DNA of 10,146 nucleotides. It comes from Terriglobia bacterium. GTDB lineage: Bacteria > Acidobacteriota > Terriglobia > UBA7540. Under the pieces are notes generated by a model, which searched no databases, was not told where the DNA came from, and saw only the letters and a program-made list of their open reading frames with translations. Location of the stretch: positions 1 to 10,146 of the forward strand of contig JALHUF010000583.1 of NCBI GenBank assembly GCA_022866195.1, read 5' to 3'. How positions within the stretch are numbered: position 1 is the first letter of the stretch; each line of letters opens with the position of its first letter. The position numbers and the translations under genes are program-made. This document shows positions 183 through 10,146 of this stretch, in pieces.

Positions 183-1454
183 CTAGAAGGGATGGGCGCC
201 GTGCGCCCCGAGGACGAACAGGAATTGAAATAGCAGATCGTTGCCGGACCGGCCGTCGGCGTAGCGCGTGAACCGGTACTGCCCCCGGATCTGGCTGAAC
301 TCGCTGGGCCAGTAGGTAATCACAGGGGCAAAGCCGCTGTCGGTCAGCAGCTCGTTACGCGCCCGGTCGGACCGATCGTAGCGTCCCCCGACGGTCCATC
401 GCCGGGAGAGCCGATAGTCGGCCGAAGTATAGAATCCAAACGCGCGCTGGATCGAGAGCTCCTGCTGGCGGCGGCTCCAGACCAGTTCGGCCCGACCGAG
501 GAAATTGTGATAAATGGCTCGCCGCAGCGGCTTCCAGCGGAAAGTGGCATCCAGCCCGTAAAGTTGAGTGATAAACGCCGTGCCCACATCGTTGTGACCG
601 CGCGCGTAGGAGAAGCCAAGATCGAGATTGGTGGATTCGGTGATATCGCGGTAGGTGCGCAGGCGCCCGACCAGACTGACATCACCCCGCTGCATCGCGC
701 GGAAGACGTCGCTCGAGTCTCCCCGGAAGACCTGGGCGGTCGCTTCCAGGAAAAGGCCTTTCGGCGCCGGCAAGATGCGACTGACCGAAACACCCGCGTC
801 GTTGATGCCGTCCTCCCCGCCCACCAGATGCTCCGTCACCAGCGGCCTATCCGTCCAGGGCAAATTGTGCGTGTGAAGCGTGTTGACCACCCCGAAGGCA
901 GAACGCATCTTGCCCACCTTGGCGACGAACCCGCCCGGCAAAGACGTGAAGGTTATGTAGCCCTCTTCCAGGCCCACGCCCTCTTGGCCGAAAGAAAGGA
1001 AGAAATCACCTCGCGCGTAGGGATCGATAATCGCCTGAAATCCCACCTCCGCTTCGTGCAGTTCGAGCGTGGGAACATCACGCCCCGGGTCTCGCCCAAC
1101 CGCGCCGAGGAAATCTCCAATCACGCTGATGTCCGGATTAAGAACCTTGGACAGGCCGCTAGCTCCGCCGTAAACGGGGAGTTGGCCGGAGGGTGTACCG
1201 GGCACGCCAGCGGGACTCTGCGGCTGCGGCATAGTTGTCGGCGCGGCCTGGGGTGCTTGCGCCGAGGTCAAGGAGGCAGCCGGCGGCGAGGGAGTAGCCG
1301 CCTGGCCGGCCTTGAGGGCTCGTATCTCGGCTTCCAGCGCATTGATCCGGTCTTCGAGGGCTTTCAGCCGTTCCTGCGTGTCATCCCTCGCTTGCGCCCA
1401 AAGGATTCCTGGCGTGAAAAAAAGCAAGCAGGAAAGAATACGGACTGTTCTCAT
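183..1454 (-). CDS. Outer-membrane porin-like beta-barrel with N-terminal coiled coil
   Basis: A 423-residue exported protein. Residues 1-20 form a signal peptide (basic start, RILSCLLFFTPG, cleavage near ILWA/Q). Residues about 25-51 are a heptad-rich coiled coil (ERLKALEDRINALEAEI), followed by a Pro/Ala/Gln-rich linker to about 90. The rest alternates short polar and aromatic beta strands and ends in Phe, the usual BAM signal of outer-membrane barrels. This layout matches trimeric OprP-like or related porins, where the coiled coil can contact peptidoglycan. Strand-rich motifs include LNPDISVIGDFLGAVG and a His-bearing segment LHTHNLPWTDRP. The ATG at 1454 is preferred because GAGGAG sits 7 bases upstream; a TTG five codons earlier is in frame but lies upstream of that site. 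It is followed after 8 bp by a metal-receptor gene and preceded by a His/Cys small protein, so a role in metal passage is inferred from context. Exact family and substrate are unknown. Confidence 0.78.
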   Translation of the reverse strand: MRTVRILSCLLFFTPGILWAQARDDTQERLKALEDRINALEAEIRALKAGQAATPSPPAASLTSAQAPQAAPTTMPQPQSPAGVPGTPSGQLPVYGGASGLSKVLNPDISVIGDFLGAVGRDPGRDVPTLELHEAEVGFQAIIDPYARGDFFLSFGQEGVGLEEGYITFTSLPGGFVAKVGKMRSAFGVVNTLHTHNLPWTDRPLVTEHLVGGEDGINDAGVSVSRILPAPKGLFLEATAQVFRGDSSDVFRAMQRGDVSLVGRLRTYRDITESTNLDLGFSYARGHNDVGTAFITQLYGLDATFRWKPLRRAIYHNFLGRAELVWSRRQQELSIQRAFGFYTSADYRLSRRWTVGGRYDRSDRARNELLTDSGFAPVITYWPSEFSQIRGQYRFTRYADGRSGNDLLFQFLFVLGAHGAHPF

Positions 1455-1461
1455 CTCAACG

Positions 1462-1467
1462 CTCCTC
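1462..1467 (-). promoter_or_regulatory. Ribosome binding site of the porin gene
   Basis: GAGGAG on the minus strand, 7 bases before the ATG at 1454. It decides between that ATG and the in-frame TTG at 1469, since a TTG start would place the site inside the gene. Confidence 0.7.
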
Positions 1468-1531
1468 AAAATCTCAGCCTACGAAGTGTGGGTGATCCTA
1501 CCGCTCGCCAAAGAAGGGCCAACGGTGGCCC

Positions 1532-1897
1532 TCAGAAGACAGGAGGGGCCCGGGCGGGGATAATAGTCAGACGCGAGGGACCGAAATCAAGCAGCGAAAA
1601 CGTAGAGAGGAAAGGAGTCACGGAGTCGGGGGGTTCAGTCGGAAATCCTGTCGCCGGGCGCCCTACATTCTGCCGCCCGATCTGACAGGCCGCACACGGC
1701 GGCCTGACCACAGCACGCTGTGTGGTGACATCGCCCCTCCGCATCACCAGCCGACGTGCTGAAACAATCTGATCTTCCTCGTGATGATGAAACTCTGCGA
1801 CCCACAAGAGCTGGGCTTGGATGAATATCAGGCACCACACAGCCAGTGTGCGCGACCATCGGTTTCGAAAAAAACGAACCAGCGTTGTGATTGTCAC
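1532..1897 (-). CDS. Small single-span membrane protein with HHHEED and CxxC motifs (DUF2946-like layout)
   Basis: A 121-residue protein with a GTG start at 1897. A basic N-terminus (RFFRNRWSR) leads into one hydrophobic segment, residues about 17-35 (LAVWCLIFIQAQLLWVAEF). Immediately after it comes HHHEED (37-42), then CAAC (68-71) in PPCAACQIGRQ, and a Pro-rich tail. One N-terminal span, a His cluster just beyond the membrane and a downstream Cys pair is the layout of small DUF2946-type proteins that often lie beside metal-uptake genes; I do not claim membership without a profile search. By the positive-inside rule the His and Cys residues should face the periplasm, where they could bind Zn or Cu. 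The gene ends 77 bp before the porin start and is probably the first gene of that operon. The ribosome site is weak (GAAGAG, 6 bases upstream), so the start is the least sure part. Low sequence conservation is possible, and expression is unproven. Confidence 0.6.
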   Translation of the reverse strand: MTITTLVRFFRNRWSRTLAVWCLIFIQAQLLWVAEFHHHEEDQIVSARRLVMRRGDVTTQRAVVRPPCAACQIGRQNVGRPATGFPTEPPDSVTPFLSTFSLLDFGPSRLTIIPARAPPVF

Positions 1898-2022
1898 TCT
1901 GATCTCTTCACCAAGCTCCTCCCCCGATCCGTGGAACCAACAAAAGCGGCGCCCATCGGGCAGAGTAGCTCGACCTACTTACCGGTTAGATGGAACCAGA
2001 ACGGGAGAAGATGTCCGAGGAA

Positions 2023-2037
2023 TTGACACTATGTCAA
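2023..2037 (-). promoter_or_regulatory. Candidate 15-bp operator (7-1-7 palindrome) overlapping a -35 box
   Basis: The plus strand reads TTGACACTATGTCAA: six-base arms TTGACA/TGTCAA match perfectly, and as a 7-1-7 palindrome 6 of 7 pairs match, which is the geometry of Fur-family (Fur/Zur/PerR) boxes. On the minus strand the right arm is an exact TTGACA -35 hexamer at 2037-2032. A weak -10-like CATCTT lies 18 bp further at 2013-2008. It is 126 bp upstream of the small His-rich gene that heads the porin and metal-receptor operon, and 75 bp past the end of lpxD. A metal-responsive repressor covering the -35 box is a reasonable inference, but the sequence does not match a published Zur or Fur consensus that I can quote. 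Confidence 0.42.
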
Positions 2038-2082
2038 ACAGACCGCGCGGGAAATCGGCCTGCCGACCCGGATGCAGGGCTG

Positions 2083-2102
2083 GGGCTGCGTCATGGCAGC
2101 CC
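2083..2102 (-). terminator. Hairpin just after lpxD, possible weak terminator
   Basis: Perfect 6-bp arms GGGCTG and CAGCCC around an 8-base loop, starting 11 bases past the lpxD stop codon in the direction of transcription. No U-run follows, so intrinsic termination would be poor. It may instead protect the mRNA 3' end or be chance in a GC-rich gap. Confidence 0.25.
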
Positions 2103-2112
2103 GACATTCAAC

Positions 2113-3132
2113 CTATGTGCCACGCCCCGACAGTTGCGCGGAGATCTCTTTCACCTTCTGGGCCAAGCTCGGGAGATGCGAGAGGTGTGCGTACATCCGC
2201 TTGAACTCCGCGAGGGGCCGGGCCGGCGAACCCCAGACGGTCTCGCCCTTGTGAACAATCTTGCCTGGCAGAATCGCGGCGCCGCCCCCAAGCACGGCCC
2301 TTTCCTCAACGCGCGCGTGGTCACCAATTCCCACCTGGCCACCCATTACCACGTAATCGCCAACTTCAACGCTACCCGAAATCCCAACCTCCGCTGCAAT
2401 CACGCAATGCCGGCCGATCCTCACGTTGTGTGCGATCTGGACGAGGTTGTCAATCTTGGTTCCCTGTCCAATCAGCGTCACTCCCAGCGATCCTCGGTCC
2501 ACCGTGCTGTTACTGCCGATCTCCACGTCGTCTTCGATCACCACTTGTCCGAGTTGCGGGAACTTGTGATAGCGACCTTCGGCAAGAACATAACCGAACC
2601 CATCCGAGCCTACGACCACGCCAGCGTGCATAATCACCCGGTTGCCAATGTGCGCCCCCGGATAGATGGTCACCCGCGGGTACAGGACGCACTGCGCGCC
2701 CACGTGCACGTTCTCACCCAGAAACACCCCGGCCTCGAGGCGTGTTCCCTGCCCCACTGATACGCCAGGTTCGATTACCACGTAAGGGCCGACACTCACA
2801 TCGGGCGCCAGTTGCGCGTCTGAGGCAATCACGGCCGTGGGATGGACTCCAGGAACCGGAGGAGTAGGCGGACGAAGCACCTCGGCGACGCGGATCAACG
2901 CAAGCTTGGGGTGAGGAACGGCAATGGTGGTTTGCCCCTGCACCGACACCCCCTGCGCCACCAGGATGCAGCCGGCCCGGGAGGAGGCGGCCAACCGCAG
3001 GGCCCGTTCACCCTCCGCGAAGGTCAGTTCCTCCGCTCCGGCGCTCTCCAGGCTCGCCACATTTCGAATCTCGCGGCCCCCTTCCCCTTGAAGTTCGCCG
3101 CCTAGTAACCGGGCAATTTCTTCGACTCTCAT
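2113..3132 (-). CDS. lpxD: UDP-3-O-(3-hydroxyacyl)glucosamine N-acyltransferase
   Basis: A 339-residue LpxD, the third step of lipid A synthesis: it transfers a 3-hydroxyacyl chain from acyl carrier protein to the 2-amino group of UDP-3-O-acylglucosamine in the cytosol. Residues 1 to about 95 form the N-terminal uridine-binding domain ([12 protein letters not shown], then the TFAEG strand). Residues about 97-300 are a left-handed parallel beta-helix with many [I/V/L]-G-x-x hexapeptides (for example [20 protein letters not shown]). The family signatures GSDGFGY (175-181), NSTVDRG (208-214) and IAHN (233-236) are present, with H235 matching the catalytic His. The C-terminal helix (about 307-335) fits the acyl-carrier contact region. 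The ATG at 3132 is chosen because MRVEEIA is the normal family start; a TTG ten codons earlier lacks a ribosome site. It lies 69 bp downstream of the LpxL-like gene and probably shares its transcript. Length is normal. Confidence 0.95.
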
Positions 3133-3201
3133 GGTCACACCCCAGATCTGTTCAAAGTCCAACGGTAAACGCCGAAAGTGTCTCCTTCCAACTTTCGGCA
3201 G

Positions 3202-4197
3202 TCAACCTGCAACTCCGCAAGAAGGATAAAACGGAGGTTCGCCCTGCGGACGCGTCTTCCAGCGCCGGTGCACCCAGAGCCACTGGTCAGGATGGCGGCG
3301 AATGTAATCCTCAATCAGCCGCGTGAAGTTCGCCGTGTTTGCAGCAATTACTTCCTCCGGGTCTTCCCGCGTGATCCAAGCGACGGGATCAAAGCGCAGG
3401 CGATACTTCCGCATCTGCGCGTCCCAAATCACCAAGCCCAGCACGACGGGGACCCCAGTCTTCCGTACCAGCCGGGCCGGGGCCGTCGTCGTGCAGGCGG
3501 GGCGGCCGAAAAAATCAACAAACACTCCTTCGGCGGCAAGCGTGTTTTGGTCTGCCAGAATGCCCACAGCCTCTCGGCGTTGGAAGGCACGCAATACCTC
3601 GCGGGCGGCATCCCGCTTCTCGATGGCGCGTCCCCCACTCAGGCAGCGGTAACGGTTGATGAAGGCATCGAGCAAAGGATTGTCCAGCTCCCGCACTATG
3701 AAATTGCAGGGATAACCGTACACGCCGTGGGCAAACGATCCCAGTTCCCAATTGCCAAAATGGGCGGTGAGGAAAAGCACGCCTTTCCCCTGGTCTCGGG
3801 CGCACGCGTAGTTCTCAAACCCATCGTAGATGACCAGGCGTTCGATGTTCTCCCGGTTCCAGGAAGGAAAGTGCGCGAAGTCGGCGAGCACGCGGCCGAA
3901 ATTCCGAAATGCGCCAAACTGCACTTGTCGACGGCGCCGTTCGGACCACTCGGGAAACGCCACGCGCAGATTAGACAGACCCACCCCGCGCAGTCGGGGC
4001 CAGAACCAGTAGCTCAGGGTTGCCAGCACCGTGCCGAGGGCGCGGGCCAATCGGTGAGGCAGCCAGCCGAGGAACCACAGGAGGCTCGTCGCCGCGGCGA
4101 ACTGCACCCAGTGACGGAGATTAGGGCGGCGCGGTTGCGCGGTTCCCGAGCACGGTGCCCCAGGGCGCGAGGAACTGTCAGCCATCAAGGAACCCAA
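3202..4197 (-). CDS. Lipid A biosynthesis late acyltransferase, LpxL/HtrB family
   Basis: A 331-residue membrane-bound lysophospholipid-type acyltransferase of the HtrB/LpxL/MsbB family, which adds secondary acyl chains to lipid A at the inner membrane. A membrane segment covers residues about 32-66. The catalytic HX4E motif is HFGNWE (H146, E151), within LFLTAHFGNWELGSF. Further family blocks are ADQN (215-218), VDFFGRPACTTTAPARL (227-243) and the terminal HPDQWLWVHRRWKTRP (302-317). The acyl chain and exact position cannot be read from sequence. The start is set at TTG 4197 because GGAGG lies 4 bases upstream and a stop codon is directly upstream in frame; ATG 4185 is an alternative but sits about 16 bases from that site. 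It lies between the hydrolase (80 bp upstream) and lpxD (69 bp downstream), so early and late lipid A acylation genes are side by side. Confidence 0.9.
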   Translation of the reverse strand: MGSLMADSSSRPGAPCSGTAQPRRPNLRHWVQFAAATSLLWFLGWLPHRLARALGTVLATLSYWFWPRLRGVGLSNLRVAFPEWSERRRRQVQFGAFRNFGRVLADFAHFPSWNRENIERLVIYDGFENYACARDQGKGVLFLTAHFGNWELGSFAHGVYGYPCNFIVRELDNPLLDAFINRYRCLSGGRAIEKRDAAREVLRAFQRREAVGILADQNTLAAEGVFVDFFGRPACTTTAPARLVRKTGVPVVLGLVIWDAQMRKYRLRFDPVAWITREDPEEVIAANTANFTRLIEDYIRRHPDQWLWVHRRWKTRPQGEPPFYPSCGVAG

Positions 4198-4277
4198 TCA
4201 CCCTCCGCGCGTGGGATTCCCCAGGCAGCAGACAAGATCAGGGGTTGCGTCCCGGCTCCGAGCGCGGCGGGCCATCG

Positions 4278-5225
4278 TCAATCAGCCCGTAGAGGCAGCT
4301 TGTCGCGGAAGAAGTCGACGACCTCCTGCTCGTACTGCTTTTTCATGGCACCCGAAGCCAGCGTGGTGTACGTATGCTCCAGCACCAACATGCGCTTGGG
4401 TGGGGGGGCAAGCGCGTAAAGATCTTCGGTGGCGGCAGCCAATAGAGGCCAGTCTCGGCTGTTGATGAAGAGCTTCGGCATGTTTTCCAACTTGGAGAGA
4501 TTGGCGCGGACCGGCGGCCTCGCCCTCCCCAAGGTGAGAAGGTGGAATCCTGCGCGGGGCACCATGCGGAAAAAGCGGCTTGTACCACCCAGCAGGTCGT
4601 CCACCTGCGCTTCCAGCATCTGACTGGGGTCTTCGTAGATCGTGTCAGCCACCAGCGCCTTTACCAGAGGACTCTGTTCCGCCGCCACCAGCGCCGCATA
4701 GCCCCCCGAAGTCGTCCCAAATAAGCCCACCCGGTGAGGATTGACTCTGGGGTGCCTCGTCACCATCGCGATGGCGGCCAGCAAGTCCTCCGCCTCACGT
4801 ATGCCTAGGTCCGAATACCCCTGCTCCGCCTTCGGACCACGGGAATTGAAAAGATAGACATTGAAATTACTTTTGCTGAGGAAACTGCCCAGCGCCAGTA
4901 GCTCCGAACGGTTGGAGTTGTAACCGTGGCAGAGAATGATGGCCGGCGCCCCTTTGAGACCCAGCAGCAACCACCCGTCGTGCTCGCCGCCCCTGCGATC
5001 CGTGAAGCTGAGGGTTATGTAGTTGCTCTGGAGGGAAGACTCGGGCGTCACGGTTTCGGTGTCATTGACCGTAGTGACAACGCGATAGGTCAGGAAGGCG
5101 CCCACTCCCCCCAGTACAATCGCCAGCGCCGCTGCCAGGATGAACGCTGCTCGGACCAGTCTCCAGACCACTTCGCTGGGGATTCGTGCAGGGGCAGCGA
5201 CCGCGATAGCTCGCCTACGTGCCAT
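4278..5225 (-). CDS. Membrane-anchored alpha/beta hydrolase (BEM46/YfhR-like)
   Basis: A 315-residue protein with a basic N-terminus and one hydrophobic segment (residues about 26-47), so probably an inner-membrane anchor with the catalytic domain outside the cytosol. The hydrolase core shows the oxyanion turn LCHGYNSNR (98-106), the strand VYLFNSRG (123-130), a nucleophile elbow FGTTSGGY with S173, a likely acid at D258 (INSRDWPL) and a base at H284 (LEHTYTTL). The elbow is T-T-S-G-G rather than the usual G-x-S-x-G, with Thr at the S-2 position. Family members are esterases, thioesterases or peptidases, and the substrate here is unknown. ATG 5225 has AAAGG 7 bases upstream. It is the first of three minus-strand genes that include two lipid A acyltransferases, which hints at envelope lipid metabolism by context only. 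A short palindrome, GCGAGC/GCTCGC, lies 37-54 bases upstream at 5262-5279. Confidence 0.82.
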   Translation of the reverse strand: MARRRAIAVAAPARIPSEVVWRLVRAAFILAAALAIVLGGVGAFLTYRVVTTVNDTETVTPESSLQSNYITLSFTDRRGGEHDGWLLLGLKGAPAIILCHGYNSNRSELLALGSFLSKSNFNVYLFNSRGPKAEQGYSDLGIREAEDLLAAIAMVTRHPRVNPHRVGLFGTTSGGYAALVAAEQSPLVKALVADTIYEDPSQMLEAQVDDLLGGTSRFFRMVPRAGFHLLTLGRARPPVRANLSKLENMPKLFINSRDWPLLAAATEDLYALAPPPKRMLVLEHTYTTLASGAMKKQYEQEVVDFFRDKLPLRAD

Positions 5226-5700
5226 AGAGCTGCCTTTGATTCACTCTACACTTCAACGATGGCGAGCACACCGGCTCGCAAACTCGAAATGCTACCACAA
5301 CCTGTTATCTACCTCGACCAAAACTTTCATCTCGCAGCCTCAGCGCGGCGCACATGTCTCACCCGCGCTTGGGGAAGAGCAAACGCAAACGTCCGAACTC
5401 TCGCCTCCCCATAGGCCAGCGGCTGACGCCCTGGCCACCAAGGCCTTCTTCGTTCTCTCGCGGATCTACTGACAAACTGTCCTCTTCAGCCCTTCATTTG
5501 CGTCTTTCAGTGCGCCTCGCGCGGCCGCGCAAGAGCCGCGGGAACTAAACCCAGCAAAATGACTCGCGCGCTGCAAGACGATGGGGCGGCTTTTGCGCTA
5601 TATTCCTGCTAAGCTTGACCACGTACGAACGCTTGGCGCCGCCGGCCTGGTTATGGGGAGCCTTTCGTTACCAGGTCGGCGCGAGAGGGAGCACGCAGTC
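5226..5700. other. Divergent intergenic region without a convincing gene
   Basis: Between the minus-strand hydrolase and the plus-strand GNAT gene. Open frames here show no conserved wording. Visible items are a 6-bp perfect inverted repeat GCGAGC/GCTCGC at 5262-5279, near the hydrolase start, and GGCCAG/CTGGCC arms around 5414-5435. There is also a possible plus-strand promoter near 5575-5604. From 5581 the frame is open into the GNAT gene, but third-position GC is only about 60 percent there, against a much higher value after 5701, so it reads as leader rather than coding sequence. No strong minus-strand promoter for the hydrolase was recognised. Confidence 0.5.
5575..5604 (+). promoter_or_regulatory. 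Possible promoter of the GNAT gene
   Basis: -10-like TATATT at 5599-5604, with a poor -35 (AAGACG, 5575-5580) 18 bp upstream. If used, transcription would start near 5611, inside the open frame that begins at ATG 5581, which favours a later translation start such as 5701. Confidence 0.25.
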
Positions 5701-6687
5701 TTGGCATCTGAGGTGATCGACATCCGCCAATTCACGGCCCGCGACTTCGAGCCCTTGTTGGAAGCCGAGTCGCGCATCTGGCGCGAGACTCTGCGCTGGG
5801 ACTACACTACCTCGCGCCGCCTGATTTCTTCCTGGCTTGACGAGAAACGCCTTTCCGGCTACGCCTTCCTGCGCGACGGCCAAATTACCGGTTACAGCTT
5901 CTTCTTCTACGAGGCCGAAAAAGCTCTCATCGCCGACCTGTTCGTCATGCCCGAAGAGGAGCAAGTCGGCCCGGCGCGGGTCTTGCTGGAACACGTCATC
6001 GAAACCCTGCTTGCGACCCCGGGCCTGCGCCGCGTGGAGACCCAACTTCCTCACTTTACTTTCGAGGAACTCGAGCCGTGCTTTCGCGCTCACGGCTTCG
6101 CCGGCTTTCTCCGCCGCTTCATGGCGTTGTCGCTCGCGACCCGACGACCGGATTCAGCCGTCCCTGGCCAGGAGGCGGGACACCCAACTTCGCAGGCTGT
6201 TTCTGTGCCCGGAGATTTCTGCGTGGAACCCTGGGAACGCAAACACGATCCGCCGGCGGCCGCGCTCCTCTACAGCACCTATGGCCAGCACCTCGACTCC
6301 CGGATCAACGACCAATACACTTCCTTGGCCGGTGCCACCCGCCTGATAGAGAGCATCGTGCACCAGCGCGGCTGCGGGCAGCTCCTGCCCCAGGGCTCGC
6401 TGGTGGCCCTTCACCGCCCAACGCGGAAACTCGCCGCGGCGTTGGCGATAACCGCCGTGCGGCCCCAGACCGCGCACATCCCCCAAGTCGCGGTGGCGAG
6501 GGAGTTCCAGCGCGTGGGTCTGGGCACCGCCCTGATGGAGACTTCGTTTCGTGAGCTGGCGCGTCTGGGCCATGAGGAGGTCTCGCTTGCCGTCACCGAC
6601 TTGAATGCTGGCGCGGTGCGGCTCTACCAGCGCCTGGGATTTGAGACCTTTCGCACGTTCGGGGCCTTTGCCTGGGAGGGGCGATAG
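5701..6687 (+). CDS. Tandem GNAT-domain N-acetyltransferase-like protein
   Basis: A 328-residue protein with two GNAT folds. The N-terminal fold (about 4-145: VIDIRQFTARDFEPLL, then ITGYSFFFYE and ALIADLFVMPE) has the strand order but no clear acetyl-CoA loop, so it may be degenerate. The C-terminal fold (about 170-328) keeps motif A, QVAVAREFQRVGLGTALM, with the Q/R-x-x-G-x-G pyrophosphate loop at 270-275, and motif B, DLNAGAVRLYQRLGF. It probably acetylates a small molecule or a protein N-terminus; the substrate is unknown. The start is uncertain: TTG 5701 is preferred because GAGGGAG lies 9 bases upstream and codon bias rises sharply there. ATG 5581 and ATG 5653 are in frame but would add 40 or 16 residues unlike a GNAT start. 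It stands alone, divergent from the hydrolase and convergent with nrdR. Confidence 0.8.
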   Translation: MASEVIDIRQFTARDFEPLLEAESRIWRETLRWDYTTSRRLISSWLDEKRLSGYAFLRDGQITGYSFFFYEAEKALIADLFVMPEEEQVGPARVLLEHVIETLLATPGLRRVETQLPHFTFEELEPCFRAHGFAGFLRRFMALSLATRRPDSAVPGQEAGHPTSQAVSVPGDFCVEPWERKHDPPAAALLYSTYGQHLDSRINDQYTSLAGATRLIESIVHQRGCGQLLPQGSLVALHRPTRKLAAALAITAVRPQTAHIPQVAVAREFQRVGLGTALMETSFRELARLGHEEVSLAVTDLNAGAVRLYQRLGFETFRTFGAFAWEGR

Positions 6688-6720
6688 GGGAACTGCTTGC
6701 TGTGTCGCGGCAGACATCTT

Positions 6721-6740
6721 GCCGGGCTCTGCGCCCCGGC
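6721..6740. terminator. Hairpin between convergent GNAT gene and nrdR
   Basis: Perfect 6-bp arms GCCGGG/CCCGGC with an 8-base loop, placed in the 61-bp gap between two converging 3' ends. It could serve both strands as a terminator, but neither side has a U-run, so support is limited. Confidence 0.35.
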
Positions 6741-6748
6741 GAGCGTCA

Positions 6749-7210
6749 CTACTTCCCTTTAGCTTTCAAGAGTTCCTTCAGCTCGTCCATGAACTCGCGA
6801 ACATCTTTGAAATCCAGATAAACCGAAGCGAAGCGGACATAGGCGACCTTATCGAGCTTCTTCAGCCGGTTCATGACCAGGGCGCCCACCTCGGAGGTGG
6901 GCCGTTCGCGGTCCGGTGATTCGACCACCAAGGACTCCGCTTCGTTAACGATTTCCTCCATCTTGCCCATGGGGACAGGCCGCTTTTCACACGCCTTGAG
7001 CACTCCCGCCAGAACTTTCTGCCGGTCGAACTTCTCACGTCGCCCGTCTTTCTTGATGACCATGTACGGGATTTCATCGAGGCGCTCATAGGTCGTGAAG
7101 CGCCGGCCGCATTTCCCGCACTGCCGCCGGCGGCGGATGGTATCGCCGATCTTCGCCTCGCGCGAATCAACCACCTTATCTTCCACGTGCCCGCAGAATG
7201 GACATTTCAT
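6749..7210 (-). CDS. nrdR: Transcriptional repressor NrdR
   Basis: A 153-residue NrdR, the nucleotide-sensing repressor of ribonucleotide reductase genes in the cytosol. An N-terminal zinc ribbon has ligands C3, C6, C31 and C34 (MKCPFCGH and QCGKCGRRF), with the DNA-binding basic stretch IRRRRQ between them. Residues about 49-139 form the ATP-cone, which binds ATP or dATP and sets the oligomeric state (MVIKKDGRREKFDRQKVLAG, then RFASVYLDFKDVREF). Length and wording are normal for the family. ATG 7210 is the only sensible start, because the zinc ribbon begins at once; GGAGG lies 12 bases upstream, which is rather far. It follows the YbhN-type gene by 42 bp and probably shares its promoter. No nrd gene is in view, and no NrdR box was recognised in the window, so its targets lie elsewhere. 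Confidence 0.97.
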   Translation of the reverse strand: MKCPFCGHVEDKVVDSREAKIGDTIRRRRQCGKCGRRFTTYERLDEIPYMVIKKDGRREKFDRQKVLAGVLKACEKRPVPMGKMEEIVNEAESLVVESPDRERPTSEVGALVMNRLKKLDKVAYVRFASVYLDFKDVREFMDELKELLKAKGK

Positions 7211-7252
7211 GGGAGCCGGTTGCCTCCGAAAAACCGAGCTGAGGGGCGGACA

Positions 7253-8320
7253 TCAGGCTTCTTCCACCGCTGCGCGCTCTTCTTCTGCGATGGCCTCGAG
7301 TTTCCTGAACGTTAGGCCTTCATGCACCAGTAACCCCGCGCCCAGCGCCAAGCAGGGCACCGAAATCATAAGCCAGAGCAGAATGGCAGCCCCCGTGGCA
7401 GCTTCCACGCCCACACCGAAGAGCCCCGTGAGGGCCAGAATGGCTCCCACCTGGTATCCTCCCCCAATGCCGGGAAATTGCACGGCCAAACCGATGACCG
7501 CAAAAAACAGAACCAGCGTCGTCGCCAACCACGTGAGGTGCGCCAGCTCCCCGCCTAGGGCCTGAAACACCAGCCAGAACACGCTGGCGTTGAAAATCCA
7601 GAGAATTACGGTCGCGATGATGCTAGCCAGTAAATCCTTCCAACTCTGTATGACTTTCAAGCCGTCGGCGAACGAGCGCAGGAAATGCTCGAAGTGGTGA
7701 CCGGCGCGTCCCGGCAGGAAACCGAACACCCCTACCAGCCACCGCGTGGCCGCCTCCGTACGGAGGCGGAACCACACCAGTGCCGCAATCATCAGTGCCG
7801 TCCCCAGGAACACCGCGGCCCCGAACTCGTCCAATCGGACGAGGATGGTTCCCGCGCGGCTCGCCGCGGCGTCTCTAGGCGCCAGGTACAGCGCCCCAGC
7901 GAACAGGAGGACCAGGAAAACAGTGTCGTAGATGCGCTCGAGCACTAACACCGCCACCATGGAGCTAAACGAAACATTTTCTTTCCTAGCGATGTAGGCT
8001 GGCCGAACAAACTCACCCAGCCTGCCGATCAGGTAGATGGAGCTGAATCCCAGGATCTGGCCCACGAACAACACCCAGACCGAGGCCTTCTTGATGGGGC
8101 CCAGAAAAAATTTCCAGCGATAGGCCCGCAGCAGATAGCTCGTGTAGGTCGTCACCAGCGCCGCCAGCAAAAGTCCCGGGCGCGCATGCACCAACGACGA
8201 CCAGAATCTATCCCAGCGAAACGCGCGCCACTCGGCACTGCGACTCAGGTTATAAATAATCAGCCCCAGGATGACGGCGCTCGCGCCCAACCAAAGCCAT
8301 CGTCGCCGGTTGCTTTTCAT
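7253..8320 (-). CDS. YbhN/UPF0104 family multi-pass membrane protein (LPG synthase transmembrane-like)
   Basis: A 355-residue integral membrane protein with about eight hydrophobic spans (near 8-25, 49-64, 80-98, 119-146, 165-184, 229-251, 263-281, 305-332). Family marks are RAYRW (65-69), GRLGEFVRP (99-107), LERIYD (127-132) and [10 protein letters not shown] (283-292). These match the UPF0104/YbhN family, related to the flippase half of lysyl-phosphatidylglycerol synthase MprF. There is no soluble aminoacyl-transferase domain, so it is not a full MprF. A role in lipid or glycolipid handling is inferred from the family only. The charged tail ([14 protein letters not shown]) is probably cytosolic. 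Start ATG 8320 has no good ribosome site. A clear promoter lies 34 bases upstream, giving a leader of about 27 nt. nrdR follows after 42 bp. Confidence 0.87.
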
Positions 8321-8465: not shown

Positions 8466-9740
8466 ATGTCTATGCTCGGTAAGACAATTTCTCACTACCG
8501 CATCCTGGAAAAGCTCGGAGGCGGTGGTATGGGTGTAGTGTACAAAGCCGAGGACACCAAGCTCGGCCGGCTGGTCGCCCTGAAGTTCCTGGTAGGGGAG
8601 GGCTCCCCGACTGCGCCGGGGCAGGCCGCCCTCCCGCGGGAGCCCGGAGGGCTCCCCTACCAAATCGATCGCGCAGCCCTGGAGCGCTTCAAGCGCGAGG
8701 CGCGTGCTGCCTCGGCTCTCGATCACCCCAACATCTGCACGGTCTATGACATTGGTGAGCACGAGGGTCAGCCCTTCATCGTCATGCAGTTTCTGGAGGG
8801 GCAGACGTTCAAGCAGCGCATTAGCGTAGGGGCACGCCATGGCGTGCCCCTACCAACGGACACCCTGCTCGACCTCGCCATCCAGATTGCCGACGCCCTG
8901 GATGCGGCGCACGCGAAGGGCATCATCCATCGCGACATTAAGCCGGCAAACATTTTTGTGACCACGCGCGGCCAGGCGAAGATTCTGGATTTTGGGCTGG
9001 CGAAGCTGACACCCCAGATGCTTCGCTCCGCTCAGCATGACATCAAGGCGGGTGTCACCCTGAGCGCCAGCGAAGGGTCTCGGGACCTGCCGACGGCCTC
9101 CCTCGGCGAAGAGCTTCTGACCAGCCCCGGCGCGGTGATGGGCACGGTGGCTTACATGTCGCCGGAGCAGGCCTTGGGGCAGGAACTTGATGCTCGGACT
9201 GACCTGTTCTCCTTTGGAGTCGTTCTCTACGAGATGGCCACCGGACGGCGCGCTTTCGCTGGTGGGCCGCCTGGCACCATCTTCGACGCCATTCTGCATG
9301 CCGCGCCAACCTCCCCGCTGCGGCTGAATCCCGAGTGTCCTGCCGAGTTGGAACACATCATCAACAAGGCGTTGGAGAAAGATCGCGACCTGCGCTGCCA
9401 GAGCGCGGCCGAGCTGCGTGCCGATCTCAAGCGCGTCAAGCGCGACACGGAATCCGGGCGGGCTGCCGCTGTTGCGGCGCGGGTAGGGGAGCACCTTTAC
9501 GGTGCTCCCGTGGGAGGGCCGTCCCGACGAGGTCGGGACAGGCGCCGGCCCTCCCCTACAGGCCGCATGAACTTCCCGCCGCAATTCGTCCGGGCATGGC
9601 TTCAGCCATGCCGGGAGAATGCCGCCTTCCGAAACTGTTGTGGGGTTTTAGCCCCTGCGGCCCCAGGGGCTGAAGCCCTGGGATTGTCTGTTGGCGAGCG
9701 GTTCGGCACGGATCCCGACCGAGAACATCGGGACAGGTAA
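8466..9740 (+). CDS. Ser/Thr protein kinase (Pkn/Hanks type) with in-frame palindromic repeats, truncated C-terminus
   Basis: A 424-residue Hanks-type kinase; the kinase domain covers about 11-325. Glycine loop [10 protein letters not shown] (17-26), beta3 Lys K40, alphaC Glu E78, catalytic loop HRDIKPAN (D157, N162), DFG (175-177), the MSPEQ segment (P233, E234) and the alphaF Asp D246 are all present, so phosphotransfer is plausible. Three segments not expected in the family are encoded by palindromic repeats: residues 43-65 (beta3-alphaC loop), 121-130 (before alphaE) and about 184-207 (activation segment). From residue 340 the protein is repeat DNA read through, and its TAA at 9738 lies inside a repeat. 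Acidobacterial relatives usually continue into a transmembrane helix and a long sensor or beta-propeller part, which is absent here. Start ATG 8466 precedes the normal [11 protein letters not shown] opening; ATG 8472 is equally possible. GGAGG is 14 bases upstream. It may be a functional soluble kinase or a decaying copy. Confidence 0.85.
8592..8660. repeat. 69-bp palindromic repeat inside the kinase gene (beta3-alphaC loop)
   Basis: Outer arms GTAGGGGAG and CTCCCCTAC (10 bp with the flanking G/C), inner arms GGGCTCCC at 8600-8607 and GGGAGCCC at 8638-8645. It is exactly 23 codons, in frame, encoding V43 to Y65 right after the beta3 strand VALKFL. Family members have about 6-8 residues (PEELxxD-type) here, so the insertion is inferred from general knowledge of the family. 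Confidence 0.8.
8826..8853. repeat. Perfect 28-bp palindrome inside the kinase gene
   Basis: Both halves read GTAGGGGCACGCCA, so the dyad is perfect with no loop, centred on CCATGG. It encodes VGARHGVPL (121-129) between QRIS and [11 protein letters not shown], where relatives have a short GKPLP-like turn. Confidence 0.85.
9021..9075. repeat. Imperfect inverted repeat inside the activation segment
   Basis: Left arm 9021-9042 (CTTCGCTCCGCTCAGCATGA plus CA) pairs with right arm 9053-9075 (TGTCACCCTGAGCGCCAGCG plus AAG), with a mismatch and a bulge, around a 10-base loop. The right arm continues into GGTCTCGGGACCTG. This is the CCCTGAGCG...CGAAGGGTCT type of dispersed repeat, known to be translated in several GC-rich phyla as HPERSEG-like peptides. 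Here it is read as residues 186-204, between DFG and MSPEQ. Confidence 0.75.
9483..9559. repeat. 77-bp compound palindromic repeat at the end of the kinase domain
   Basis: Outer arms GTAGGGGAG/CTCCCCTAC (9 bp). Inside are a hairpin GGGAGCACC-tttac-GGTGCTCCC (9487-9509), a second stem GGGAGGGCC (9512-9520)/GGCCCTCCC (9547-9555), and within it GTCCCGAC-gag-GTCGGGAC (9521-9539). It shares its ends with the repeat at 8592. It begins the stretch where the kinase reading frame is pure repeat. Confidence 0.85.
9592..9615. repeat. Short palindrome GGCATGGCT-tc-AGCCATGCC
   Basis: Perfect 9-bp arms (9593-9601 and 9604-9612) with a 2-base loop, read through as part of the kinase tail (RAWLQPCRE). Confidence 0.75.
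9641..9682. repeat. Palindrome of the AGCCCCTG/CAGGGGCT type
   Basis: Perfect 8-bp arms at 9650-9657 and 9664-9671, followed by GAAGCCCTGGG. Still within the kinase reading frame ([14 protein letters not shown]). Confidence 0.7.
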
Positions 9741-9749
9741 ATCCGTGCC
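9705..9749. repeat. Nested palindrome that supplies the kinase stop codon
   Basis: Outer arms GGCACGGAT (9705-9713) and ATCCGTGCC (9741-9749); inner arms TCCCGA (9713-9718) and TCGGGA (9728-9733). The TAA at 9738-9740 that ends the kinase frame lies between the inner and outer right arms. Confidence 0.8.
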
Positions 9750-9798
9750 CTGACGCGAGGCCCACCTGGATTGCTGCCGTAGCACCTCTCCTTCCTTC

Positions 9799-9884
9799 GT
9801 AGCACGGCCATCTTGGCCATGCAGGGCCATGATGCATCCCGATAAAAGCAATCGGGACAGGTTGGAGCAGGCCGCCCGCGCTAC
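9799..9884. repeat. Repeat bounded by GTAGC/GCTAC with two inner hairpins
   Basis: Ends GTAGC (9799-9803) and GCTAC (9880-9884). Inside are GGCCA-tct-TGGCC (9806-9818) and TCCCGAT-aaaagca-ATCGGGA (9837-9857). A further GTAGCAC at 9779-9785 directly precedes it. The right boundary is uncertain, because 9861-9881 can also be the 5' arm of the possible RNA that follows. Confidence 0.6.
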
Positions 9885-10024
9885 CACGGCGTATGAGTTT
9901 CCCACCTTACGGGCGGACCCCAGACGTCAGGTTCCGATGAACAGGTGAGGGCTCCGGCACGCCGCCGAGCAGCCTTGCGCGACGCACAGCAATCGTAGGC
10001 AAAGGCTGTTGCATCCCACCTTTT
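9861..10024 (+). ncRNA. Candidate structured RNA (long interrupted hairpin, 6S-like shape)
   Basis: No open frame here looks coding, yet the plus strand folds as one long arm. Outer stem: GGT.GGA.GCA.GCC (9861 on) with GGC...TGC.TCC.ACC (ending 10020). Then CGCGC (9877-9881) with GCGCG (9977-9981), CGGCGT (9887-9892) with ACGCCG (9959-9964), GGACCCC with GGGCTCC (one mismatch), and an apical GTTC-cgat-GAAC. A TTTT run follows at 10021. An extended hairpin with internal bubbles of about 160 nt resembles 6S RNA in outline. The outer arm overlaps the preceding repeat, no promoter is visible upstream, and the opposite strand can form most of the same pairs, so strand, ends and family are all unsure. 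Confidence 0.3.
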
Positions 10025-10031
10025 CCGCTTC

Positions 10032-10040
10032 TGGTACAAT
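10032..10040 (+). promoter_or_regulatory. Extended -10 promoter element
   Basis: TGGTACAAT: a TG-N-TACAAT extended -10, five of six matches to TATAAT. No good -35 at 17 bp; a TTGCAT lies at 10009, 20 bp upstream. Transcription would start near 10047 and could serve the gene that may begin at 10119. Confidence 0.4.
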
Positions 10041-10118
10041 GCGCGCCAAGTTTCTTGAGGCAAGTTGCAAGCGGTCGGACAATAAGTCCCGCCCTTGTTT
10101 TCTTGCGGACGAGGCCGA

Positions 10119-10146
10119 GTGGACCAAGATCCGGAACTGGTGACAC
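10119..10146 (+). CDS. Possible start of a gene cut by the right edge
   Basis: GTG at 10119 with GAGG 4 bases upstream begins nine open codons reading MDQDPELVT. A start of the form D-x-D-x-E-L-V is common in ECF-type sigma factors, but nine residues cannot settle this. The promoter at 10032-10040 would give a leader of about 72 nt. Treat it as a hint only. Confidence 0.22.

Follow-up and report, generated by a model that had tools for sequence, protein, structure and literature searches.

In one family of Acidobacteriota, palindromic repeats of the REP/BIME type, some tagged with GTAG and others from different palindromic families, are translated in frame within PknB-type kinases, where they recur in the same three loops of the kinase domain and are in part shared by diverged paralogs. 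The explanation that we prefer, and regard as probable, is that the kinase loops tolerate such repeats and that some of them were moved between paralogs by short-tract recombination.

Repeats in the window kinase

The window, i.e., the whole stretch of 10,146 nt analysed here, is the entire contig C479 from the genome assembly of a Terriglobia bacterium (G000; 3.58 Mb in 727 contigs), which, judging by its fragmentation, is probably a metagenome assembly. An open reading frame on the forward strand (8466-9740, 424 aa from the ATG at 8466) encodes a PknB-type Ser/Thr kinase. The protein has a Pfam Pkinase domain (PF00069, E 1.7e-40; about aa 11-312), and its closest solved structures are PknB/Stk1 chains with about 30-33% identity. 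A preliminary description of this DNA had stated that the catalytic motifs were untouched, and indeed K40, E78, D157, N162, D175 and D246, all invariant in an alignment of 72 kinases, are retained. Fold and catalytic motifs are those of PknB-type kinases, and the difference lies in repeat-derived insertions in three loops. Elsewhere in the window (183-8320), Pfam matches were to LpxD, a lipid A acyltransferase, an alpha/beta hydrolase, a GNAT protein, NrdR and an LPG-synthase-type membrane protein; a 428-aa open reading frame at 183-1469 gave no Pfam match at E 1e-5.

The palindromes that had been described at 8592-8660, 8826-8853 and 9021-9075 are present and all translated as part of the kinase. 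Element 1 (8592-8660, forward strand) lies in the beta3-alphaC loop (site 1) and encodes 23 aa. It was recognised by pattern match and by its counterpart in the paralog C508 as a GTAG REP pair (GTAGGGG...CCCCTAC), 42 of its 69 positions are self-complementary, and it folds into an outer stem with two inner hairpins. In C508 a 48-nt form of this pair occupies the same codon; the window copy carries 21 additional nt in one hairpin loop, a small in-frame palindrome that codon alignment with C508 places at approximately 8606-8626 (forward strand). The identity runs between the two genes stop at 8605 and restart at 8634. Element 2 (8826-8853, forward strand) is a perfect palindrome with GTAG and CTAC ends (28 of 28 nt self-complementary) that encodes VGARHGVPL in the alphaD-alphaE loop (site 2; 8820-8861, forward strand, from the kinase comparison). 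Element 3 is an imperfect palindrome in the activation segment (site 3; 9009-9113, forward strand, defined by the kinase comparison as the loop between DFG and a 10-residue stretch). The interval 9021-9075 mirrors without gaps at only 18 of 55 positions, and the somewhat wider interval 9018-9080 (forward strand) folds into a long hairpin with -18.1 kcal/mol. Neither GTAG nor CTAC occurs in 9018-9080, and element 3 is thus not a GTAG-tagged repeat. Since elements 1 and 2 both have GTAGGGG/CCCCTAC ends, the earlier view of three unrelated palindromes was wrong for these two; it holds for element 3, which belongs to another family.

A fourth element, a 77-nt GTAG REP pair identified by pattern match and fold, follows in frame directly behind the kinase domain (9483-9559, forward strand) and folds into two hairpins with unpaired GTAG ends. 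Thus, a GTAG tag stands beside a short stem-loop in elements 1, 2 and 4; in the minimum-energy folds of elements 1 and 2 the tag is paired as well. The rest of the reading frame (9560-9740, forward strand) consists of further palindromic repeats translated up to the stop codon, and the protein has a repeat-derived tail after about aa 340. The region behind the kinase domain (9483-9862) is a cluster of several palindromic families, among them a small palindrome of the TCCCGA...TCGGGACAGG kind at 9712-9738, at 9836-9862 and within the hairpin loop of 9483-9559. When repeats were sought across the whole window, mainly chance-like pairs were found.

Compared with insert-free kinases, the window kinase is longer by 19 aa in the beta3-alphaC loop and by 5 aa before alphaE, and its activation stretch has 35 aa versus 24 aa. 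The alignment with paralogs, which the preliminary description had proposed as a test, therefore shows a gain in length at all three loops.

Survey of the kinase family

Our comparison covered 143 different kinase domains. Of these, 131 come from 25 genomes of the window's family (f1), one comes from a sister family and 11 come from five genomes in other families of the class, making 31 genomes in all. They are the best matches to the window protein among those listed, a non-random sample, and were aligned to a profile of 14 kinases without inserts at the three sites. These domains contain 148 internal insert stretches of at least 5 aa, of which 29 are in the beta3-alphaC loop, 62 before alphaE, 55 in the activation segment and just two elsewhere. 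That 146 of the 148 are in three loops gives good support to the earlier suggestion that only loop insertions survive. One of the two other stretches, RRAAMGTSPLQ at profile column 253 of a kinase from G029 (L214), resembles repeat-derived peptides.

Gains of at least 4 residues were found in f1 in 19 of 124 kinases at site 1, 53 of 123 at site 2 and 52 of 121 at site 3, and in none of the 12 kinases outside f1 at any of the sites. At least one site-2 gain was present in 19 of the 25 f1 genomes. The distribution within f1 is uneven: at site 2, G036 and G031 had gains in 0/4 and 0/3 kinases, versus 2/4 each for G017 and G020 (partly genes of the first set). A second set from four non-f1 genomes, with at least two kinases already present in the first set, showed no gains (0/15 kinases at site 1 and at site 2, 0/12 at site 3). 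Furthermore, 83 kinase domains from 80 named records showed one gain per site; these records were taken among those listed and ranked by similarity, which may favour insert-free genes, and the site-1 and site-2 gains repeat the letters of G010 and G019 kinases already counted. One of the records agrees in its site-2 DNA with a kinase of the sister genome G019. The titles of 79 of these records refer to Acidobacteria lineages, many of them Terriglobia, and one to Candidatus Aminicenantes.

The inserts could in most cases be recognised as repeats. With at most one mismatch, GTAG/CTAC was present at one or both ends of 14/19 inserts at site 1, 42/53 at site 2 and 31/52 at site 3, where the counts depend on short motifs that native GCCGCTAC codons could produce as well; the remaining 5, 11 and 21 inserts had no recognisable GTAG ends. 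Hairpins more stable than in shuffled DNA (z < -2) were predicted for 9/19, 37/53 and 25/52 inserts at sites 1, 2 and 3, versus 0/19, 1/53 and 6/52 control stretches from the same genes. At site 3, at least in C148, C543, C206, C19 and C221, the activation-loop peptide (VAAASRRRTGDED and variants) seems native, but according to our own reading a GTAGCGG repeat pair encodes it. At site 2, kinases of G008, G016 and G007 as well as C221 have repeat-like DNA without GTAG ends, e.g., of the CACCACCCCCTGACCCCC and CGAAAGTCGAA types.

The slot before helix alphaE

The position of the inserts is most precise at site 2. In 29 of the 30 inserts with a recognisable end, CTAC stands precisely 8 nt ahead of one shared anchor codon, and this holds for 16 different 14-nt ends from 12 genomes. 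Both ends were recognised in 22 elements, and 16 of these replace exactly 13 native bases; they are 28, 49, 52, 55 or 58 nt long, always 1 modulo 3. Three 48-nt elements have the same right end and a left end shifted by 2 nt, so that they are read in another phase and the frame is restored. The three others deviate at the left end or, in one case, at the right end.

The native stretch that the elements replace ends in Pro in 57/82 insert-free kinases, with Leu following in 41/82, and Pro-Leu is found at this position in 36/53 insert-bearing loops. The right end of the element, read as CCC-CTA-C, supplies the Pro-Leu preceding helix alphaE, which would explain why its end falls on one particular nucleotide in nearly every case. 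The fixed junctions thus reflect either selection for Pro-Leu, which the repeat end happens to encode, or old junctions between which repeats were exchanged. The latter reading can be extended, tentatively, to the alphaD-alphaE loop as a standing cassette slot: a single old insertion would have fixed both junctions with the replacement of 13 native bases, and different REP elements of the five lengths given above may since have been exchanged by recombination between repeats and between paralogs, diversifying the loops with peptides from mobile DNA. We regard this as possible rather than probable.

Sharing between paralogs

The elements of the window kinase recur in its paralogs. Elements 1 (in the 48-nt form) and 2 are both found at the same sites in C508, and element 2 is also present in C215 and C206. 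Element 3 recurs in C106 (98%) and C215 (94%), its right half stands at the cut contig end of C208, and a cluster of relatives (79-83%) is present in C587. Outside the loops, the window kinase is far from ten paralogs (dS 0.78-1.50, long-branch averages). Element 2 is identical, at the same codon, in all three paralogs although the flanking dS is about 1.0-1.4: none of its nine third positions differ from C508, C215 or C206, versus 36/83, 38/83 and 33/83 in the flanks. Similarly, element 3 differs at 0/21 third positions from C106 (flanks: 44/111) and at 3/21 from C215. Patches of near-identity with C508 surround the inserts, e.g., at 8634-8683 and 8824-8887 (one mismatch). The proposal of three independent events in about 500 bp is not borne out, since the same elements are at the same codons in paralogs and at least part of this sharing looks like copying of short segments.

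For pairs within a genome, we compared the flank identity of two insert-bearing kinases with that of mixed pairs after subtracting the identity of the rest of the gene. The difference was 0.077 on the right side (permutation mean 0.030, sd 0.0125) and 0.039 on the left side (permutation mean 0.000), and on either side it was reached in 0/1000 shuffles, which ignore relatedness. In G000, too, insert-bearing paralogs resemble one another more closely in the flanks than over the remainder of the gene. The linkage was reversed in G003 (-0.192 for insert-insert versus -0.090 for mixed pairs) and slightly in G019, which fits separate insertions in these genomes. On the kinase tree, the presence of a site-2 insert requires at least 29 changes, fewer than in each of 200 label shuffles (30 to 47, mean 40.5), suggesting that insert presence is partly inherited or shared; as 63 of the 126 inner branches are open and a few remote kinases sit on long branches, insertion counts from this tree are inexact.

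Could each insert nevertheless be an independent transposition, with the sharing between paralogs due to convergence on one permissive position and the identical elements due to a young repeat family? At least 29 changes on the tree point to repeated arrival, as do the 48-nt elements, with their other reading phase and the left end shifted by 2 nt. In a sub-clade of four close paralogs in G003, two kinases have GTAGCG-type inserts of different sequence, one has an insert of the GTAGGGGAG type and one has an empty, native-like loop. However, convergence does not sit well with the shuffle result, with the flanks in G000, or with the 16 of 22 elements, of five lengths, that have both junctions at exactly the same nucleotides, and we consider it rather unlikely that all inserts arose in this way. 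Probably, some inserts arrived separately and others were copied or inherited between paralogs.

Integrity of the kinase

In the AlphaFold model of the window kinase, built on the 72-kinase alignment, the mean pLDDT is 82.8 and the pTM 0.82, with most of the core above 90. The three inserts were modelled mostly as coil of low confidence: pLDDT values of 10-residue blocks were 55-67 in insert 1, 76 in insert 2 and 31-59 in the activation segment (residues 181-220). One may ask whether the inserts were selected as adaptive diversification, the swapped repeat-derived peptides altering substrate choice or autophosphorylation. Their location in the activation segment and two further surface loops would fit this, as would the 11 kinases of the 143-domain set with gains at all three sites. 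Nevertheless, the inserts are predicted as low-confidence coil, tolerance alone accounts for the placement, and we consider adaptive diversification quite improbable. The effect of the inserts on kinase activity may instead be nearly neutral.

Alternatively, the window gene may be decaying and may have gathered repeats without a frameshift by chance, as the preliminary description had also considered. The window copy indeed lacks the membrane/sensor part of C508 (the best match of the C-terminal part of C508 to 9441-10146 had E 0.42) and ends in repeat DNA, and its end branch is 0.17, versus 0.085 for C508. The kinase domain argues against decay. It departs from the conserved residue in 2 of 104 conserved columns, which equals the median of 129 kinases, and family kinases show this same median whether they carry 0, 1, 2 or 3 inserts. 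Moreover, the six catalytic residues are all kept, the full-length paralog C508 carries elements 1 and 2 as well, and pairwise dN/dS outside the loops, the quantity that the preliminary description proposed to estimate, is 0.03-0.17 against ten paralogs (long-branch averages). Decay of the kinase domain, whose conserved columns are not eroded at any insert number, is therefore not supported, and we judge decay of the gene as the origin of the inserts to be very improbable. As far as the sequences tell, repeat DNA is part of these kinase proteins without visible damage to the catalytic core. Misjoining of repeats in a fragmented metagenome assembly would be in keeping with the 727 contigs and with several kinase contigs that end inside the gene, but 19 separate genomes have kinases with an in-frame insert at site 2, mostly at the same codon, which makes it extremely improbable.

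GTAG repeats and transposases in the genomes

The pattern GTAGGGG-(6 to 66)-CCCCTAC was found 31 times in G000, and the reversed pattern, used as a control, twice; the window repeats thus belong to a set with many copies in inverted pairs. Eleven of the 31 pairs lie within kinase open reading frames, in 8 genes, where 0.65 would be expected for 25 kinase genes of a generous 3 kb each and copies independent of one another, which these are not. According to our own reading, eight of the 11 are in loops and three just behind the domain (C479, C90 and C148). Two further pairs are in frame in other real genes, encoding a pterin-binding enzyme (C240) and a type ISP restriction-modification protein (C444). 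The other 18 either have short or doubtful frames around them or lie close to the upstream edge of an open reading frame (again our own reading). Of the 31 pairs found by this pattern, 13 are clearly intragenic, and all 13 are read GTA-GGG in frame (phase 0).

The copy in the pterin-binding (dihydropteroate-synthase-like) enzyme (C240:866-893, L144) is the 28-nt GTAG palindrome of element 2 with one base changed, and beside it the protein has a duplicated peptide, AHAGLKPGATLTRAK, that looks repeat-derived. In the restriction-modification protein (C444:397-454, L130), the in-frame pair is 58 nt long, and an earlier part of the protein contains a peptide, VGEGSALPKERG, similar to element 1.

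In the sister genome G004, 12 of the 50 listed GTAG pairs (64 in total) were inside kinases among the matches listed, three each in its contigs C35, C171 and C190; in G016 this was the case for just 2 of 25 listed pairs (40 in total), with one more at an edge. Counts of the looser pattern GTAGSGG...CCSCTAC were higher than those of the reversed control in 23/37 family genomes and in 1/24 others. Since the control often equals or exceeds the count (in 14/37 family genomes, e.g., 19 versus 24 in G002, and in 23/24 others), the per-genome counts are only a rough guide. Of the four non-family genomes with kinases surveyed, only G054 stood clearly above the control. Kinase inserts are only weakly linked to the repeat load of the whole genome: the GTAG-rich G036 and G031 had no site-2 inserts in the kinases surveyed, and G028 and G014, with 2 and 1 pairs genome-wide, carry inserts. 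The present repeat load is therefore not predictive of kinase inserts.

We also searched G000 for Y1/RAYT-type transposases (Y1_Tnp); eight of nine hits were over the cut-off, three of the eight with a stop. One RAYT-like gene (L123, on contig C171 of G000) has tandem GTAGCGG repeats on either side, which resembles a REPtron, and a palindrome similar to element 2 about 500 nt away. Two others, L116 (C336) and L119 (C416), have GTAGCG-type repeats upstream (our own reading). The GTAGGGG type of the window was represented near transposases only by single motifs at three of the nine loci, and that at L120 does not look like a clean repeat. None of the nine loci had a clean GTAGGGG pair beside the transposase; the adjoining repeats are of GTAGCG types, unlike those of the window.

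Discussion

Our results are consistent with the following course of events. Within one family of Acidobacteriota, REP/BIME-type palindromes, possibly moved by RAYT transposition, would have entered the PknB-type kinases, which form a large group of paralogs there. Inside the domain, only in-frame copies in three exposed loops (beta3-alphaC, alphaD-alphaE and the activation segment) would persist, because the kinase core tolerates extra residues there. Some insert-bearing loop segments may then have been copied between paralogs over short tracts of tens of bp, presumably by gene conversion, so that the same element came to stand at the same codon in otherwise diverged genes.

Palindromic repeats read as parts of proteins have precedents. 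Rickettsia palindromic elements (RPEs) were known earlier than the 2013 report on in-frame GTAG REPs. RPEs are palindromic mobile-type DNA kept in frame within proteins (PMC10969869, PMC3733652) and end in CGTC (PMC3733652). The analogy with RPEs drawn in the preliminary description is well supported, as the kinase repeats are likewise palindromes of a mobile type that survive in frame in proteins. They differ from RPEs in phylum and in sequence, the window repeats ending in GTAG and not in CGTC, and also in their hosts: RPEs are found in unrelated genes, the repeats described here mainly in one kinase family with shared slots.

Elements 1, 2 and 4 fit the GTAG REP super-family as portrayed by Di Nocera et al. 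(2013, PMC3733652), with a GTAG tag, a short stem-loop, frequent inverted pairs, many copies and RAYT genes nearby. According to the same report, some GTAG copies are in frame within open reading frames, and more than half of the inserts encode 20-30 residues. The intragenic copies described there are in different kinds of genes, many of them for DNA repair, and the sharing of about one site is stated only for recB in two species of Xanthomonas. Here, in contrast, one paralogous kinase family carries the repeats in the same three loops in many genomes. The report mentions Acidobacteria once, in connection with TIR-flanked transposases, and they are absent from its list of phyla with GTAG repeats (PMC3733652); REP counts for some Acidobacteriota genomes are given in the RepRanger paper (PMC12306157). 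In a literature search that reached few subscription papers, we found no report of REPs in kinase loops or of a nucleotide-fixed slot in Acidobacteriota. Intragenic in-frame GTAG REPs and RPEs are thus already known, and the new aspect seems to be the recurrent, nucleotide-fixed slot in one kinase family.

For the kinases of these metagenome-assembled genomes, our findings call for caution, since much of their variation in loop length is repeat DNA. At the same time, the family provides repeat insertions by the dozen, of natural origin and in one well-understood fold, and the same genomes also contain paralogs whose sites are empty. This combination makes it testable how palindromes survive in proteins, whether their arrival is due to transposition or to exchange, and whether regulatory kinase loops are remodelled by mobile DNA.
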